Source of the DNA: Oscillatoria sp. CS-180
GTDB taxonomy: Bacteria; Cyanobacteriota; Cyanobacteriia; Phormidesmidales; Phormidesmidaceae
Length of the DNA stretch: 55,165 nucleotides
Direction: 5' to 3'
NCBI RefSeq assembly: GCF_028330965.1
Contig: NZ_JAQMUB010000070.1
Location: forward strand, 1 to 55,165
Below the pieces are notes generated by a model. The model saw only the letters and a program-made list of their open reading frames with translations, was not told the DNA's origin and did no database searches. Made by a program: the position numbers and the translations under genes. Shown piece by piece: positions 7,976-13,296 of this stretch (position 1 is the stretch's first letter; each line of letters starts with the position of its first letter).

Positions 7976-8102
7976 ACTTGTGAGACCAGGGAGTAACCCT
8001 TAAGATTGACTCACATTTCAATGTGTAGCAACAAATCCGAGATGGGCCTGTAATGTGCAGCCAGTATCTCGCTATCAGCAACATGACTGTGGCCTTGAAC
8101 CG

Positions 8103-8987
8103 ATGGCTCCTGCTCAATCCCAAGCATCCGATTCCTTTCCTGACGACTCGCTTGAATACGAGTCAGCTCTAGTCCTGAAAACAGAGACCATTCAGATCGA
8201 GCATCTGCAATTTCCTCCAGGCGAAGGAGATTTTCAGGCCGAAGCCCACACGCTGTTTGTAAATCTGACGCCGCGCCCTCTGCATTACCTACAGAAACAG
8301 GATGGGAAAACCCACACCGGGCTGTATTGCCATGGCGATATGCTGCTCACCCCTGCCAATACACCGCTATTTGTGCGATGGGAGAGGGACGAAAATTGCT
8401 TACAAATTCAGCTACCAGAACTGTTCCTGAAGCGGGTTTCGGAGGAAACCTTGGGAAAAGACGGCGATCGCCTCACGCTAGTGCCAACCTTTCAAAGTCG
8501 AAATCAGCCACTGGAAGCGATCGCCACCCTCCTGATTTCGGAGATGCAGCAACGTCAACCCAATGGTGTGCTGTATCTAGACTCACTCGCCAATGTGCTG
8601 GCGGTGCAGATGCTGCGTTACTACGGGACAACCACGGCCCAGTTATCAAGTTATGAAGGCGGGTTACTGACCTATCAGCTCAATCAAGTCCTAGACTACA
8701 TTGATGCTGAATTAGCCCAAGACATGAAGCTAGCTGACCTAGCTGGATTACTTGATATGAGCCCGTTCCATTTCGGACGCCTGTTCAAGCAATCCATGGG
8801 AATTTCGCCTCATCAATATGTCATTCAACAGCGGATAGAACGCGCTAAACACCTACTGAAAAAAAGCGATCGCGCCATCATCGATATTGCTCTGGAATGC
8901 GGATTCACTAGTCACAGTCACCTCAGCAAGCAATTTCGTAAAGTCGTGGGGACAACGCCTAGAAACTTTAGAGTTCAGAAGCTGTAA
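8103..8987 (+). CDS. AraC/XylS-family transcriptional regulator
   Basis: The 294-residue protein has an N-terminal cupin-like effector region (about 1-170) and a C-terminal AraC DNA-binding domain in the last ~100 residues. The first helix-turn-helix is MKLADLAGLLDMSPFHFGRL; the second is IIDIALECGFTSHSHLSKQF followed by RKVVGTTPRNFR. It probably activates or represses the divergent reductase gene and perhaps the DUF1772 gene. I chose the ATG at 8103; a GTG at 8055 would add 16 residues. The effector is unknown. Confidence 0.85.
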   Translation: MAPAQSQASDSFPDDSLEYESALVLKTETIQIEHLQFPPGEGDFQAEAHTLFVNLTPRPLHYLQKQDGKTHTGLYCHGDMLLTPANTPLFVRWERDENCLQIQLPELFLKRVSEETLGKDGDRLTLVPTFQSRNQPLEAIATLLISEMQQRQPNGVLYLDSLANVLAVQMLRYYGTTTAQLSSYEGGLLTYQLNQVLDYIDAELAQDMKLADLAGLLDMSPFHFGRLFKQSMGISPHQYVIQQRIERAKHLLKKSDRAIIDIALECGFTSHSHLSKQFRKVVGTTPRNFRVQKL

Positions 8988-9094: not shown

Positions 9095-9189
9095 CCGCAG
9101 AATGCCTAGTCGAAGCCACCCTTTCAGCTCTCTGGCAAGCGTGAGTCTAAGCGAAAAGTTTGTTTCGCTACGGTTATGACATTCTGCGG
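9095..9189. repeat. Nested palindromic element
   Basis: The perfect inverted arms CCGCAGAATG (9095-9104) and CATTCTGCGG (9180-9189) enclose 75 bases. Inside them is a second hairpin, AGCGAAA (9150-9156) with TTTCGCT (9163-9169) and a six-base loop. This arrangement resembles a small non-coding palindromic repeat or a miniature element without target-site duplication visible to me. Confidence 0.5.
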
Positions 9190-9274
9190 CGCACCTTCTC
9201 CTGCTTCTCCCTGCGGCGCTTTGAATTTAATCGTGCTCTAAAACTTTTGTCCTTGTACTGAGAGTATCCGGATA

Positions 9275-9299
9275 CTATTGGGTGCACAAGCCTAGATGG
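9275..9299. repeat. 25-base near-repeat, copy 1 of 2
   Basis: TGCACAAGCCTAGATGG at 9283-9299 recurs exactly at 53731-53747. The eight bases before it match at six positions (CTATTGGG against CTACTGGA). The second copy overlaps the 3' end of a membrane-protein gene on the minus strand. Confidence 0.6.
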
Positions 9300-9348
9300 T
9301 TAAAGCTGCATATTTGTGCGATCGCCAGTACCACGATCTGAACAGTGT

Positions 9349-9380
9349 AAAAACCCTGAGAGGGTTGCTCTCAGGATTTT
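9349..9380 (-). terminator. Rho-independent terminator of the apcD4-apcB3-isiX unit
   Basis: A perfect 8-bp stem, CCTGAGAG (9355-9362) with CTCTCAGG (9368-9375), has a five-base loop. Read on the minus strand it is followed by GTTTTT, about 70 bases after the isiX stop. On the plus strand it is followed by ATTTT, so it may also stop transcription arriving from the AraC side. Confidence 0.75.
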
Positions 9381-9447
9381 CTAGACGAAGTTTAGCCGTC
9401 ATGGGAAGGCTCTCATATAAGGTCAATAACCCTGTATGATTTTGTCT

Positions 9448-11154
9448 TTACCCAGTAGGGGCTTGATAAAGAGTAGCTTCGTCCGTCTCACCAGAGTTGC
9501 TGCCGCGAGCATTGTTGGGTTCGTAATTGGCAGCGGTGTTGTTGCGGGCATGACTGGGTTCATAAACCACTGCATCTAGGGGTTGGGAAGAATCAAGTTC
9601 ATCAGTTAGTGGCTGAGGCTGTTCATAAAACCGCTCTGCTGATCGCATGCCACCCCCTTTAAACCGCATCTTGGCATCTTTGAGAGCAGAAGATTGGTAA
9701 AAGGTGTCCCCAGTAGAATTCATAGGAGATTGGCTGCGACCGTAGCCTGGTTCATCAACTGTATTCAGGGGTTCAGGGAAAACGAGTTCCTCTCCTACTC
9801 GAATTGATTGTTCATAAAGCCACTCTGGCGATCGCGTATTGTGATCAAACCTCGCTTTGACATCTTCGAGCGCAGAGGGTTGGTAAAACGTGTCTTTTTC
9901 AAGGTGGTAATCGATTTGATAAAGCGTTTTGTGCACCCCATTGATAGTTGTTAAATCGGGTAGCTTGATGCCTTGAGAGCGACAGTAGACGTAATCTTCA
10001 AATGGCTGCTCTCTTTTTAGCAATGGCTGGGGTTCGGCGTCAGGGGCTCCATATTGCACTTCAGACAGTAGCTTAGGCTGGTTCTGAAAAGCATCTTGAT
10101 AAACCAAGCTAGGGTTATCGCTGGTTTCCTCAATTCTCTGCTGCCAGTTTTTCAGGACTTCGTCGAAGTCCAACCCAAGGGACCGTTGAAAATGCCAGAG
10201 AGAACCCTGTAAAACGAAAAAGGCTAGATAAAAGTGGGTATTAGCTAACCAGGTGCGCGATGTATACCCCTGTTCCAATGTTGCATTAGGGTCAAAGTAG
10301 TAGGGCAGCAGGGAAGACTTCAGTTCCAGTGTCGGTCCATAAAACTCTACCGGATAGGCCAGTGTATTGAATCCACAGTAATACGATGCAGCGAATCCAG
10401 CTAAGGCAAGCCCTAGCAGCGAATACGACAAAATGCCGTCTGCAGAAAACTGAAATAGCTCCCTGACCCATTTGAAGGGAGGCACTAAGATGTGCCAAGT
10501 TCCCCCTAAGATCAGCAGCAACGCCACAAGAATGTGCCCACCCACTAGATCTTCTAAAGTACTCACGTCAAACAGATGAGTGCGGTAGTCCCAGAGGATG
10601 CCAATGTTTAAGGTGGGTGCTGTTACCAGCCGCACATCCTCAATATTGGCATCATAGAGTCCCCCAAAAAATAGAGCTTTAGCGACCAGCAGCAGTGCTC
10701 CTATTCCCAGAATGACGAGGTGATGCCCTAAAATTAAGCCAAGTTTTTGAGCATCATCCCATTCGAAATGAAATTTAGTTGGGTTTCCAGACTCAGACTT
10801 CAGGCTTGGAGATAGACGACTGCGATGGAAATAAGCCCCACCGGCCAAAACCCCAGCTGCCACGATGTGAATCACCCCGATCGCAAAGATAGGAGAGGTA
10901 TTAACAATGGCTCCGCCAGAACCGACACCCCAGCCTTCGGTTGCTAGGTGGGGCAGCAGAATCAACCCTTGAGCGTATAAAGGGTCTTTGGGCGAATAGA
11001 CAGCGAGTTCAAACAGTGTAAAGGCACCAGCCCACAGCATGATAAGTGCCGCCTGGGCCGCATGAGCCACGATAAACGTGTTGGATAGGTTAATAAATCG
11101 GGCATTGCCAGCCCACCAGGGATATTGCTCCTGGATTTTGCTTGAAGCGTGCAT
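9448..11154 (-). CDS. isiX: IsiA/CP43-like chlorophyll-binding protein with a repeat-bearing C-terminal tail (IsiX-type)
   Basis: The first ~340 of 568 residues are a six-helix CP43-like antenna of the IsiA/Pcb family: YPWWAGNARFINLSNTFIVA at 11-30, LLPHLATEGWGVG at 66-78, GVIHIVAAGVLAGGAYFHRS at 93-112, GHHLVILGIGALLLVAKALF at 143-162 and NTHFYLAFFVLQGSLWHFQR at 305-324. Histidines in these helices are the usual chlorophyll ligands. IsiA itself has about 340 residues; here ~225 soluble residues follow. The tail holds two copies of a ~50-residue repeat (about 421-473 and 483-537). It is the last gene after apcD4 and apcB3. The LoLiP name isiX is inferred from this context; in the thylakoid it would feed a photosystem in low light. 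Confidence 0.75.
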   Translation of the reverse strand: MHASSKIQEQYPWWAGNARFINLSNTFIVAHAAQAALIMLWAGAFTLFELAVYSPKDPLYAQGLILLPHLATEGWGVGSGGAIVNTSPIFAIGVIHIVAAGVLAGGAYFHRSRLSPSLKSESGNPTKFHFEWDDAQKLGLILGHHLVILGIGALLLVAKALFFGGLYDANIEDVRLVTAPTLNIGILWDYRTHLFDVSTLEDLVGGHILVALLLILGGTWHILVPPFKWVRELFQFSADGILSYSLLGLALAGFAASYYCGFNTLAYPVEFYGPTLELKSSLLPYYFDPNATLEQGYTSRTWLANTHFYLAFFVLQGSLWHFQRSLGLDFDEVLKNWQQRIEETSDNPSLVYQDAFQNQPKLLSEVQYGAPDAEPQPLLKREQPFEDYVYCRSQGIKLPDLTTINGVHKTLYQIDYHLEKDTFYQPSALEDVKARFDHNTRSPEWLYEQSIRVGEELVFPEPLNTVDEPGYGRSQSPMNSTGDTFYQSSALKDAKMRFKGGGMRSAERFYEQPQPLTDELDSSQPLDAVVYEPSHARNNTAANYEPNNARGSNSGETDEATLYQAPTG

Positions 11155-11187
11155 GGTGATAGGTTGACTGCAATAGCGGTTTTCAGC

Positions 11188-11216
11188 AAGGGCCTGCCTT
11201 AGGCAGACAGGCCCTT
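11188..11216 (-). promoter_or_regulatory. Intercistronic hairpin between apcB3 and isiX
   Basis: The arms AAGGGCCTG (11188-11196) and CAGGCCCTT (11208-11216) pair perfectly over nine bases around an 11-base loop. On the minus strand the hairpin is followed by GCTGAAAA, not by a T-run. It is thus more likely an RNA-processing or stabilising structure, or a leaky terminator that lowers isiX relative to apcD4-apcB3, than a full stop. Confidence 0.55.
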
Positions 11217-11234
11217 TAGTCCACGTGCCGGAGG

Positions 11235-11720
11235 CTAGCTGAGGCCGGCAACGATGTGGTCAAGATAGATACCCATTTCTTGACCCGCTTCTGCCCCAAC
11301 CCGTTCGGTGACGACTTCTTTCATAGCTTGAACTGCCTGAATAGTGGGTTCAATTGGAACTCCCAATGAGAGATAGGTTTCTCGCAAACCGTTGAGTACC
11401 CGCTCATCCAGAATGGAGACATCGGCAGCCAGCATGGCATAGGTGGCATAGCGCAGGAAATAAGTTAAATCTCGCAAACAAGCCGCATAACGCCGACAGG
11501 GATACATATTGCCGCCTGGACAGGTGATGCTTCCATAGAGCAAGCTTTTCCTGACTGCATCGCCAATAATGCTGGCGGTGTTAGCCCCGATTTGAGTCGC
11601 TGCTTTGACCCGTAATGCGCCACTCTGGTAGTAGTTCTTGAGCGTATCCAGTCTAGAACCCTCCAGGTATGCACATTCCTCATCAGCAGGGTTAATAACA
11701 GCCGTAATAGTGTCTTGCAT
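11235..11720 (-). CDS. apcB3: Allophycocyanin beta paralogue (ApcB3-type)
   Basis: The 161-residue protein has ApcB length and aligns throughout: [20 protein letters not shown] at the start, PGGNMY with the modified-Asn position N71, and the bilin-attachment Cys81 in [10 protein letters not shown]. It differs from housekeeping ApcB in the GH-loop ([12 protein letters not shown], with extra Cys67 and Cys75) and at the C-terminus ([13 protein letters not shown]). I chose the ATG at 11720; an upstream in-frame start at 11753 adds a poor 11-residue leader. It lies 74 bases after an ApcD-like gene, as expected for the ApcD4/ApcB3 pair. The suffix 3 rests on gene context. Confidence 0.75.
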
Positions 11721-11794
11721 GATCAAAACTCGAATACAACAGTAAACAATCAAAAGCCGTAGTGAAGAGCGTCGGTGTTTTAGAGTTTCAGACC

Positions 11795-12271
11795 CTAAAA
11801 TGCACGAATCAGTTGATCAAAGTAAGGAGCTGCTAAAGCGCCTTCCTCAGCAGTCAAAAGACCCATGGCAACCTCTTTGATGCAGCGGTAAGCCGTTCTG
11901 TGATACGAAAGCGGAAGAACCCCTAGCGATACATACATTTCACGCGCCCCTTCGATGCCGATATCTTCCATAGGCTTAGAATTACCTGCCAGAATGCAGT
12001 AGCTCACCACCCGGATGTACCATCCCTGATCGCGCTGGCAATTAGCTGTTTTTTTCGGATCGCCGCTGTTACTGGGGCAGTTTGGACATTGAGCCCAGTA
12101 ACGCTTGCTACCTTCGTCAACAATTTTTTGCTGATTTTCGGCTAGCTTCTGCGCTGCGCTAATACGCGCCGTTCCATCATTGAAAAAATCTTGAAGTTGG
12201 TTGAGTTCAGCACTGCTCAAAAAACGATTGGCGCGATCGGATTGGGCAATGACCTTAGCTACAATGCTCAT
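11795..12271 (-). CDS. apcD4: Allophycocyanin alpha-type paralogue (ApcD4-type, far-red candidate)
   Basis: The 158-residue protein is ApcD-like: [20 protein letters not shown] at the start, [17 protein letters not shown] at 43-59, the bilin-attachment Cys78 in [11 protein letters not shown] and [20 protein letters not shown] near the end. The loop before the bilin site reads [14 protein letters not shown] (62-75), with two extra cysteines and no PGGNxY motif, unlike standard ApcA or ApcD. A ribosome-binding site GGAGGAAAG fixes the ATG at 12271; the start at 12319 is unlikely. Members of this branch pair with ApcB3 and absorb far-red light. It heads the unit, so it gets the first leader signals. 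Confidence 0.75.
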
Positions 12272-12369
12272 GATTTGAAACTTTCCTCCACTGAAAAATT
12301 TCCGAATTTTAAAGTCCATTAGTTCAAAACAGCAAAATCTACAGCATCGCCGACGTGATGCTTAAACAA

Positions 12370-12389
12370 AGACTTGGTGTATCAAGTCT
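12370..12389. promoter_or_regulatory. Leader hairpin 1 of apcD4
   Basis: The arms AGACTTG (12370-12376) and CAAGTCT (12383-12389) pair perfectly over seven bases with a six-base loop, about 100 bases upstream of the apcD4 ATG. If transcribed it would fold in the 5' untranslated region. Confidence 0.5.
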
Positions 12390-12439
12390 CAATATTTCTG
12401 TTTCCAGGCAAATTCAGATTTGGAAGCAATTCTCAAGTA

Positions 12440-12487
12440 AAGTCTTTCCAACTTCTAGCGCATTGCTATAAAAGCAGGAAAAGACTT
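12440..12487. promoter_or_regulatory. Leader inverted repeat 2 of apcD4
   Basis: AAGTCTTTCC (12440-12449) pairs with GGAAAAGACTT (12477-12487) with one bulged A. Between them TGCT and AGCA form an inner stem around ATAAA. A candidate minus-strand -10 box (TATAGC) lies in the inner stem, so the element may act as DNA or as RNA. Confidence 0.45.
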
Positions 12488-12511
12488 CACTAAATCTACT
12501 CGACTCAAAAT

Positions 12512-12530
12512 TTACTTGACAGTCAACTAA
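12512..12530. promoter_or_regulatory. Imperfect operator-like palindrome upstream of apcD4
   Basis: The sequence is symmetrical about A12521, with TTGAC and GTCAA as inner arms and TTA/TAA outside. Eight of nine pairs match. It lies about 45 bases upstream of the possible -10 box and so could be an activator site. Confidence 0.45.
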
Positions 12531-12564
12531 CCCTGGTGGCTAGCGATCGCATCAAGAAAACCTT

Positions 12565-12582
12565 TGAATTTGCGCAAATTCA
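12565..12582. promoter_or_regulatory. Perfect 18-bp palindrome upstream of apcD4 (candidate operator)
   Basis: TGAATTTGCGCAAATTCA is an exact palindrome 294 bases upstream of the apcD4 ATG. Its right arm plus three bases, GCAAATTCAGAT (12574-12585), recurs exactly at 12408-12419. A perfect palindrome with a repeated half-site is what a dimeric regulator would bind. Confidence 0.5.
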
Positions 12583-12624
12583 GATCAACGTCATGAATTT
12601 TTAGTTAAGATGCATTTTTTCCTA

Positions 12625-12644
12625 GGGCTAAAAGCTTTTCGCCC
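12625..12644. promoter_or_regulatory. 20-bp near-palindrome in the apcD4 upstream region
   Basis: GGGCTAAAAG joined to CTTTTCGCCC matches at nine of ten pairs. On the plus strand TGACTTTTTT follows it. It may be a terminator for an unknown plus-strand transcript, or another operator. Confidence 0.35.
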
Positions 12645-13157
12645 TGACTTTTTTGACATCTCACGTAAACCGGAAAAGCTCCCTCTCATTGGCCGACAGA
12701 AGACAAGCACTAGCTCTCCTACAAGTTAGCTAAAAGCCCTACCACATTAAAACTTTGAACTTACTCGGCTTTACGGTGCTGAGAAACTTGATCAATTCAG
12801 GATTCTCAGGGGTATATCACCTGCTAACTATCTAGTACTTAGAGAAACAAAATTTCGATTTTGCTACTTCCACATATAGATTCAAGCGCTACCCGTTAAC
12901 GACTTCACTAAAGAAATCACATATAAGTTAAAGGAAATTTACCTGCGAGAAAAGGATTTTGCTCTATTCAATTCTTTGGATAGGAAATATCTAATCATCC
13001 TGAGAAATATAGGCTGATTTTGAAGTACCAAGAGGCTGTTTTTTTGTTGAGTATTGTATAGCTGGCCATCTTTCAGTGGCTGAGTTCTGAGAGGTTTCTG
13101 CGAAAGACTATTGCTTAATGTTGAAAGTGTGTCCTGTTTGCAAGTTCTAAGCAATAC

Positions 13158-13199
13158 AGACTATGTACAGACACTGCTTATAGTGCCTGTACATAGTCT
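13158..13199 (-). terminator. Long hairpin after tRNA-Gly (possible terminator or element remnant)
   Basis: The arms AGACTATGTACAG (13158-13170) and CTGTACATAGTCT (13187-13199) pair perfectly over 13 bases. After one mismatch CACT/AGTG adds four more around a six-base loop. It lies 27 bases past the 3' end of the tRNA gene. No T-run follows on the minus strand, so it is not a classic terminator; it may be a palindromic insertion. Confidence 0.45.
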
Positions 13200-13225
13200 A
13201 GGTAAAATATATTCGATTTACTAAA

Positions 13226-13296
13226 GCGGGTAACGCGATTCGAACGCGCGACATTCACCTTGGCAAGGTGACGCTCTACCACTGAGCTATACCCGC
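13226..13296 (-). tRNA. tRNA-Gly (anticodon GCC)
   Basis: The 71-nucleotide minus-strand sequence folds as a standard cloverleaf: acceptor GCGGGTA/TACCCGC, D arm GCTC..GAGC, anticodon stem CACCT/AGGTG with loop TTGCCAA (anticodon GCC) and T arm with GTTCGAATC. The 3' CCA is not encoded, so it must be added after transcription; a CCA-type nucleotidyltransferase is encoded at 14598-17369. Confidence 0.95.

Follow-up and report, generated by a model that had tools for sequence, protein, structure and literature searches.

A LoLiP-type ApcD4-ApcB3-IsiX operon in Oscillatoria sp. CS-180 and the extended C-terminal tail of its IsiX

Three genes, apcD4, apcB3 and isiX, were studied in Oscillatoria sp. 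CS-180 on a stretch of 55,165 nucleotides (RefSeq assembly GCF_028330965.1, contig NZ_JAQMUB010000070.1), which is called the window over its full length. Trees and diagnostic residues support their assignment, from the genes alone, to the operons of the low-light photoacclimation (LoLiP) type, a known kind in which the biliproteins ApcD4 and ApcB3 are encoded with IsiX, a CP43/IsiA-family protein. "Low-light" is the name of the type only, because the set is regulated differently in two published strains having both this system and far-red light photoacclimation (FaRLiP). The overall explanation, held with a probability of about 0.7, is that the genes encode a far-red antenna of this type in which the C-terminal tail of IsiX would tether a helical tube of far-red allophycocyanin (FRL-AP) and limit its length.

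The ApcD4/ApcB3 pair

The three open reading frames (ORFs) follow one another on the minus strand in the order apcD4, apcB3, isiX (lengths in amino acids, aa):

11795..12271, minus strand: apcD4, predicted alpha subunit of far-red allophycocyanin, 158 aa (ATG at 12271, stop ending at 11795)
11235..11720, minus strand: apcB3, predicted beta subunit, 161 aa (ATG at 11720, stop ending at 11235)
9448..11154, minus strand: isiX, predicted CP43/IsiA-family chlorophyll protein with a long C-terminal tail, 568 aa (ATG at 11154, stop ending at 9448)

The intergenic gaps, counted in the sequence, are 74 bases (apcD4-apcB3) and 80 bases (apcB3-isiX). This order on a single strand, with the same gaps, had been described in the original prediction, and the ORF coordinates agree with it. 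The listed frame of apcD4 opens at ATG 12319; relatives begin 16 codons later, and the start is placed at 12271. The products match the Pfam families Phycobilisome (E 1.2e-48 for the ApcD-like and 3.2e-51 for the ApcB-like protein) and PSII (E 2.9e-57 for the IsiA/CP43-like protein).

Among solved structures, the ApcD-like protein is closest to 8ddy_A, the helical ApcD4 of A1463 (Synechococcus/Thermostichus), with 249.7 bits. Next come chains of 9i1r (153.2 bits, deposited as phycocyanin), ApcD5 (152.3) and the FaRLiP proteins ApcD2/D3 (about 139). For the ApcB-like protein, 8DDY chain B reaches 237.1 bits against 231.3 for the next relative, and a tree was therefore used for its placement. 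In the beta tree it falls in the ApcB3 clade, with 43 rows on one side of the branch (support 100/99). The alpha tree, a quick search without bootstrap, places the window ApcD with A1463 in an ApcD4 clade of 43 rows (Shimodaira-Hasegawa-like approximate likelihood ratio test, 99) that lies outside every FaRLiP and white-light row. The pair stands apart from the FaRLiP clades (ApcD2/3/5-ApcB2, with rows from 14 of the 39 loci) and from the clade of the genome's own white-light ApcA/ApcB/ApcD1. The names ApcD4, ApcB3 and IsiX, originally chosen from gene order and from the loop near the bilin site, are thereby borne out by the trees and by the residues described below, and the phylogeny sets the subunits with neither housekeeping ApcA/ApcB nor FaRLiP ApcD2/D3/B2. 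Three strains listed as carriers by Olsen (2015) fall in the ApcD4 clade: Leptolyngbya PCC 6406, Xenococcus PCC 7305 and Chlorogloeopsis PCC 6912.

The alpha subunit has a short BE loop together with Ser11, Cys62, Lys74, Cys78, Trp84 and Cys92, and the beta subunit has Thr4, Pro11, Asn71, Pro74 and Cys81; of these, alpha Cys78 and beta Cys81 are the bilin cysteines, retained here like beta Asn71. Alpha Ser11, beta Thr4 and beta Pro11, which have been tied to helix formation (Gisriel 2023), are each present in 42 of 43 rows, and beta Pro74, described in print as conserved in ApcB3 only, in all 43; the window is counted in these rows and has all four. The FaRLiP rows examined carry Ala at alpha 11 (48/48) and other residues at beta 4, 11 and 74 (16/16). 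All four residues, the short BE loop and the C-terminal extension of IsiX are shared with the LoLiP cluster of A1463 (apcD4-apcB3-isiX-lcyA, 8DDY), which has the same three genes in the same order and subunits of the same clades. The altered bilin-site loop of the ApcD-like protein proved real: it is three residues shorter than the full-length BE loop of the genome's own ApcA and ApcD1 and has the same length as in the FaRLiP ApcDs.

Some residues of the pigment pocket distinguish the window from A1463 and from all other members of the two clades. These are alpha Phe58Tyr, Thr65Cys and Leu77Asn (invariant in the 42 other ApcD4 rows) and beta Thr75Cys (Thr in the 42 other ApcB3 rows). Phe58 and Thr65 are also invariant in the FaRLiP alpha rows (48/48). 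Published descriptions place alpha Phe58 about 3.5 Å from ring A and treat it as a hallmark of far-red allophycocyanins rather than as what defines ApcD4; the window has Tyr58 instead. The backbone nitrogen of beta Thr75 is reported to hydrogen-bond ring D, and the Trp75 found at this site in Halomicronema hongdechloris to be essential for a 728 nm form. Cys75 is the residue of FaRLiP ApcB2 (16/16 rows). The far-red band of the window pair may therefore be shifted, in either direction. Judging from substitution rates, the window genes are under purifying selection, with non-synonymous rates (dN) of 0.12-0.19 against synonymous rates (dS) of at least 1.6 or saturated in the four relatives compared.

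IsiX and its tail

The third product is divided into a membrane body and a tail:

10147..11154, minus strand: IsiX body, residues 1-336, IsiA-like fold in an AlphaFold model
9451..10146, minus strand: IsiX C-terminal tail, residues 337-568 (232 aa), predicted disordered from residue 347
9847..9894, minus strand: tail internal repeat, copy 1, DTFYQPSALEDVKARF, matching copy 2 at 79% over 48 nt with a spacing of 186 nt
9661..9708, minus strand: tail internal repeat, copy 2, DTFYQSSALKDAKMRF, at a 62-residue step from copy 1

The body is modelled with six long helices (25-52, 87-113, 135-163, 200-223, 238-262 and 299-325). Its best fold match is photosystem I-bound IsiA (template modelling score 0.90 by target length, 56% identity), and it scores 387.9 bits against a cut-off of 335 for the chlorophyll a/b antenna subfamily. 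In a tree of the bodies it forms one clade with the other IsiX proteins (36 rows, 100/99), apart from six other CP43-family proteins of the genome. An IsiA-family protein with a C-terminal extension thus adjoins the pair, and only 3 of 143 conserved body columns are changed in the window. The IsiA of photosystem I-IsiA supercomplexes (9LZJ, 6NWA) shares this membrane body. The window IsiX differs from it in having the tail and in a residue of the last helix, position 318, where all 26 IsiX proteins compared have Gly or Ser and the genome's own IsiA has His. Extended IsiA proteins were described as lacking two histidines in the last helix, and their extension as rich in Gln and Pro, with no function assigned there (Chen 2019). 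Elsewhere in the genome (L006, G000:C9), three IsiA-like genes are adjacent; one of 520 aa may be a PsaL fusion, a guess from its length and from known fusions.

At 232 aa by our own count, the window tail is longer than any of the other 38 compared (median of all 39, 140; minimum, 118) and exceeds the 127 aa published for the A1463 tail. These counts omit the isiX of L110 and L101 (broken frames) and L104 (contig end), and include that of L112 after its frame had been read. Residues 347-568 are modelled with a predicted local distance difference test (pLDDT) value below 50, and the tail is predicted to be disordered. Conservation in the tail is concentrated on tyrosine: of the 8 columns invariant in all 39 tails, 5 are Tyr (hypergeometric P 6e-5), at window residues 352, 368, 390, 412 and 424. 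Tyr columns 416, 510 and 531 are kept in 35-37 of 39 tails. In the window, Tyr447 and Tyr486 are the repeat counterparts of conserved tyrosines, and Tyr544 and Tyr563 lie further on. The usual context is hydrophobic-Tyr-Gln/Glu-Pro/Thr. In the window tail Y[EQ] occurs 9 times, whereas 300 shuffles gave 2.4 on average and never more than 7; the count is 4 to 7 in most other tails, and all 39 exceed their own shuffle mean.

The internal repeat is absent from the A1463 tail. The next longest tail (L046, genome G182, 196 aa) contains a different tandem duplication of 59 residues, with 95% DNA identity and probably recent. A single duplication shared by sister proteins was considered, as a tree that included the tails joined the two (95); the tree of bodies alone gave 44/5, and the idea was rejected. 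The repeats are taken as separate events, without proof, because their units differ (62 and 59 residues). The window tail has no match in Pfam, and weak matches of other members (E 0.0031 in 1 of 39, another at 0.07) were set aside as chance, as were matches of the tail profile in the PDB at E 0.7 (KRas).

The tail is distributed with the pair. Among 388 genomes of the class, ApcD4 at 64% identity or more is present in 32, including the window's; the next identity down is 53%. The tail profile, with at most 10 candidates scored per genome, matched 33 of the 388, of which 32 are credible; the match in G206 (E 0.0066, 28 positions, internal stop) was counted as chance. The two sets share 31 genomes, and both mismatches lie at contig ends (G359, and G344, whose contig edge holds part of apcB3). 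G390, with a tail match in the family search, was outside the apcD4 examination. The tail thus co-occurs almost exclusively with ApcD4/ApcB3. Besides the window, 41 distinct loci were compared; 37 have apcD4, apcB3 and isiX on one strand (including 2 tail-only forms and 2 broken isiX frames), in 2 isiX lies on the opposite strand, one is cut off by a contig edge and the last is a tail-only form found by reading. In one locus with a broken frame (L110, Synechococcus sp. SynAce01, 9182-10578), isiX is interrupted after residue 241 beside intact apcD4-apcB3, either by loss or by sequencing error.

In three Pleurocapsales (Pleurocapsa CCALA 161, LEGE 10410 and a Myxosarcina metagenome-assembled genome, MAG), the gene directly after apcD4-apcB3 is reduced to the tail:

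L112:9407-9940, L114:7621-8142 and L115:9179-9700: tail-only isiX, chlorophyll-binding body deleted

The first 28-30 residues or so are joined straight to the tail. No second tail was found in these three genomes, and their IsiA/CP43-family matches all lie apart from any tail. Loss of the body is likely derived, because the ApcD4 tree places the tail-only forms at an open fork together with relatives whose isiX is intact. A gene for a PAS-GAF-histidine kinase, a candidate light sensor, follows soon after one tail-only isiX (L115:10197-12365), and a similar frame comes after the tail-only isiX of L112.

The published accounts consulted on LoLiP and IsiX describe the extension and the ruler idea, with no tyrosine array, tail repeat or tail-only form. 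Tail disorder, the tyrosine array, the length and repeat of the window tail, the tail-only forms and the pocket residues of the window are presented here as new, although earlier accounts of them may exist.

Genomic surroundings and regulation

The sequences flanking the operon contain two features:

9355..9375, minus strand: terminator-like hairpin 3' of isiX, 8-bp stem and 5-nt loop, followed by GTTTTT on the minus strand
12272..13224, minus strand: leader between tRNA-Gly and apcD4, presumed promoter region

The hairpin (CCTGAGAG-CAACC-CTCTCAGG, read from 9375 to 9355) lies just beyond the operon interval of 9448-12271. A terminator had been predicted at this end. The hairpin is there; its function is suggestive only, because the pattern scan listed this palindrome on the plus strand only and found 11 such sites where shuffles gave 5.4 on average, a twofold excess. 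The leader, of about 950 bases, begins after the tRNA-Gly gene (13225-13296) and holds no other ORF of at least 100 aa; a simple scan revealed no sigma-70-like site. A long inverted repeat at 13157-13200 (19 pairs counted), directly downstream of the tRNA-Gly, is probably its terminator. An AraC-type gene (8055-8987) was considered as a regulator of the operon and set aside, as it lies downstream and is convergent with it. No relative was found in viral contigs.

In 8 distinct loci (9 genomes) of the Thermostichus/Gloeomargarita type, an element TGCAnnTTTATTTCAAATCACAACTTTTT is present 75-81 bases before apcD4 (L063 to L071; L121, L122 and L124 are the same records). The window leader has no match to it. 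With two mismatches the pattern was also found at 3 unrelated places (2 distinct loci) and three times in one shuffle, and it was rejected as an element shared with the window. A lone exact match to its core just before an apcD of the genome's far-red cluster (L005:12883) may be chance.

Domain searches covered 30 proteins of the 70 window ORFs of at least 100 aa. They contained no other genes of the far-red cluster, as originally predicted, and no GAF or PHY domain, the near neighbours on both sides being included. LcyA, encoded by the fourth gene of the A1463 cluster, was likewise missing from these 30, a search that did not extend to the rest of the genome; lcyA is described as dissimilar or absent in related operons from other cyanobacteria. 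A FaRLiP-type cluster is present on a separate contig, C83, with paralogues of PsaA, PsaL, PsbD, PsbC and PsbB, an ApcE-like protein, ApcB2 and three far-red ApcDs; a psbA-like protein reaches 458 of the 596 bits set as its cut-off. Close to this cluster lie genes for a phytochrome-type kinase and for a DNA-binding response regulator.

Proposed mechanism and alternatives

In the proposed mechanism, one phycocyanobilin would be bound by ApcD4 and one by ApcB3, and the two subunits would build far-red allophycocyanin, probably in the form of a helical tube. Such tubes would absorb near 700-730 nm; a LoLiP response would show itself by absorption near 700-710 nm and by induction in low light. The IsiX body would lie in the thylakoid membrane like IsiA and pass energy on, most likely to photosystem I. 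The tail would act as a flexible chain, tethering the tube and limiting its length, since spaced tyrosine contacts would hold successive protomers. In the published FRL-AP tube, 7 protomers occupy 72.6 Å, about 10 Å each along the axis, and tail steps of 12-23 residues could span neighbouring or next protomers. We infer helix formation, tail contacts, energy route, spectral shift and low-light control alike. FRL-AP is reported to copurify with IsiX, and a role of the IsiX extension as a ruler has been proposed from one species; a tail serving as a multi-site tether for the helical tube would be in line with that proposal. A more detailed and tentative version, which falls short of an even chance, has a ruler with marks: each conserved tyrosine motif would dock one or two protomers, duplicated modules would change antenna length, and in some lineages the tail would be a soluble linker. 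In the main explanation, the window tail has grown, partly by duplication, and the pigment pocket of the pair has changed; a longer tube with a shifted far-red band is predicted. If the ruler bears such marks, the window operon would build the longest tube, with its band re-tuned by alpha Tyr58/Cys65/Asn77 and beta Cys75.

Several observations weigh against the tethering and measuring role or the identity on which it depends. The margin that favours ApcB3 by single-sequence score is small. Disorder of the tail is read from low AlphaFold confidence, in a model built on a 26-row alignment with a mean pLDDT of 59, and the tail profile has no credible solved structure in the PDB. The invariant tyrosines are unevenly spaced (16, 22, 22 and 12 residues). 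Only 18 of the 39 tails have more Y[EQ] motifs than the richest of their 300 shuffles, and the ordinary-length tail of L126 has 10, more than the window. Changes in the pair extend beyond the pigment: where the other rows show 95% conservation or more, 10 alpha and 3 beta columns are altered, including alpha 88, 101, 106, 109, 122, 123 and 127 and beta 16 and 64. The tail-only forms show that the membrane protein is not needed to carry the tail. Purifying selection on these copies is probably present, though weaker, because dN/dS is about 0.40 between LEGE 10410 and the MAG (P 0.015 against neutrality; 0.15-0.30 for the tails of 10 intact pairs) and the closest two, CCALA 161 and the MAG, are separated by 5 non-synonymous changes with 0 synonymous ones.

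Uneven spacing, motif counts that do not strictly follow tail length and a tail predicted to be disordered on its own would also suit the same antenna with a simpler tail, a mere membrane tether or photosystem docking segment whose tyrosines bind other partners; the two published strains differ in regulation and possibly in partners. This seems unlikely, as the credible tail matches in the 388 genomes go with apcD4/apcB3, the conserved tyrosines are distributed along the tail and not in one patch, and three genomes keep the tail without the body. A decaying copy, its odd pocket and grown tail due to relaxed selection, could account for the longest tip in the ApcD4 clade (0.17), the many altered columns and a one-residue insertion in ApcD relative to its relatives. 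It is disfavoured as highly improbable by the three intact frames, dN well below dS, the nearly unchanged IsiX body, and the retention of the bilin cysteines and five invariant tail tyrosines.

Whether the set belongs to the far-red light response concerns its use more than its identity. H. hongdechloris has an operon of the same gene family, psbA4-apcD4-apcB2-isiA2, with an extended IsiA and FaRLiP in the same genome; its set is induced in far-red light, and its authors propose an emitter role for it. Like the window operon, it has no GAF photoreceptor nearby in the published description and a changed residue at beta 75, there Trp and here Cys (the H. hongdechloris sequence was outside the compared set). 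It differs in including psbA, none being seen in the window's operon, and in an extension of about 150 aa against 232. A far-red role in Oscillatoria sp. CS-180 would also agree with the FaRLiP-type cluster and its nearby kinase and regulator genes, with the absence of a photoreceptor beside the operon, with a beta Cys75 seen in ApcB2 and in none of the 42 other ApcB3 rows, and with the deposition of G196, a genome of the window's genus, as uncultured Halomicronema. The set of C. fritschii, on the other hand, is reported not to rise in far-red light and is judged outside RfpABC control. The short BE loop and beta Cys75 are shared with FaRLiP proteins, whereas the clades and the helix-linked residues are those of ApcD4/ApcB3. 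IsiX is not known to have a counterpart in FaRLiP phycobilisomes. This link to far-red light is possible, if doubtful.

For the tethered far-red antenna, the findings bear on what measures and anchors helical far-red allophycocyanin and couples it to a photosystem. The natural range of tail lengths, 118 to 232 aa, together with two duplications unlike in unit and in age, the three tail-only forms and the conserved tyrosines, makes the ruler idea directly testable. With a known gene set and the longest tail compared, the window operon would be a natural test case for a tail that sets antenna length. Its pocket changes would provide a variant for studying how far-red pigments are tuned, including beta 75, the position that is key to the 728 nm form of H. 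hongdechloris.

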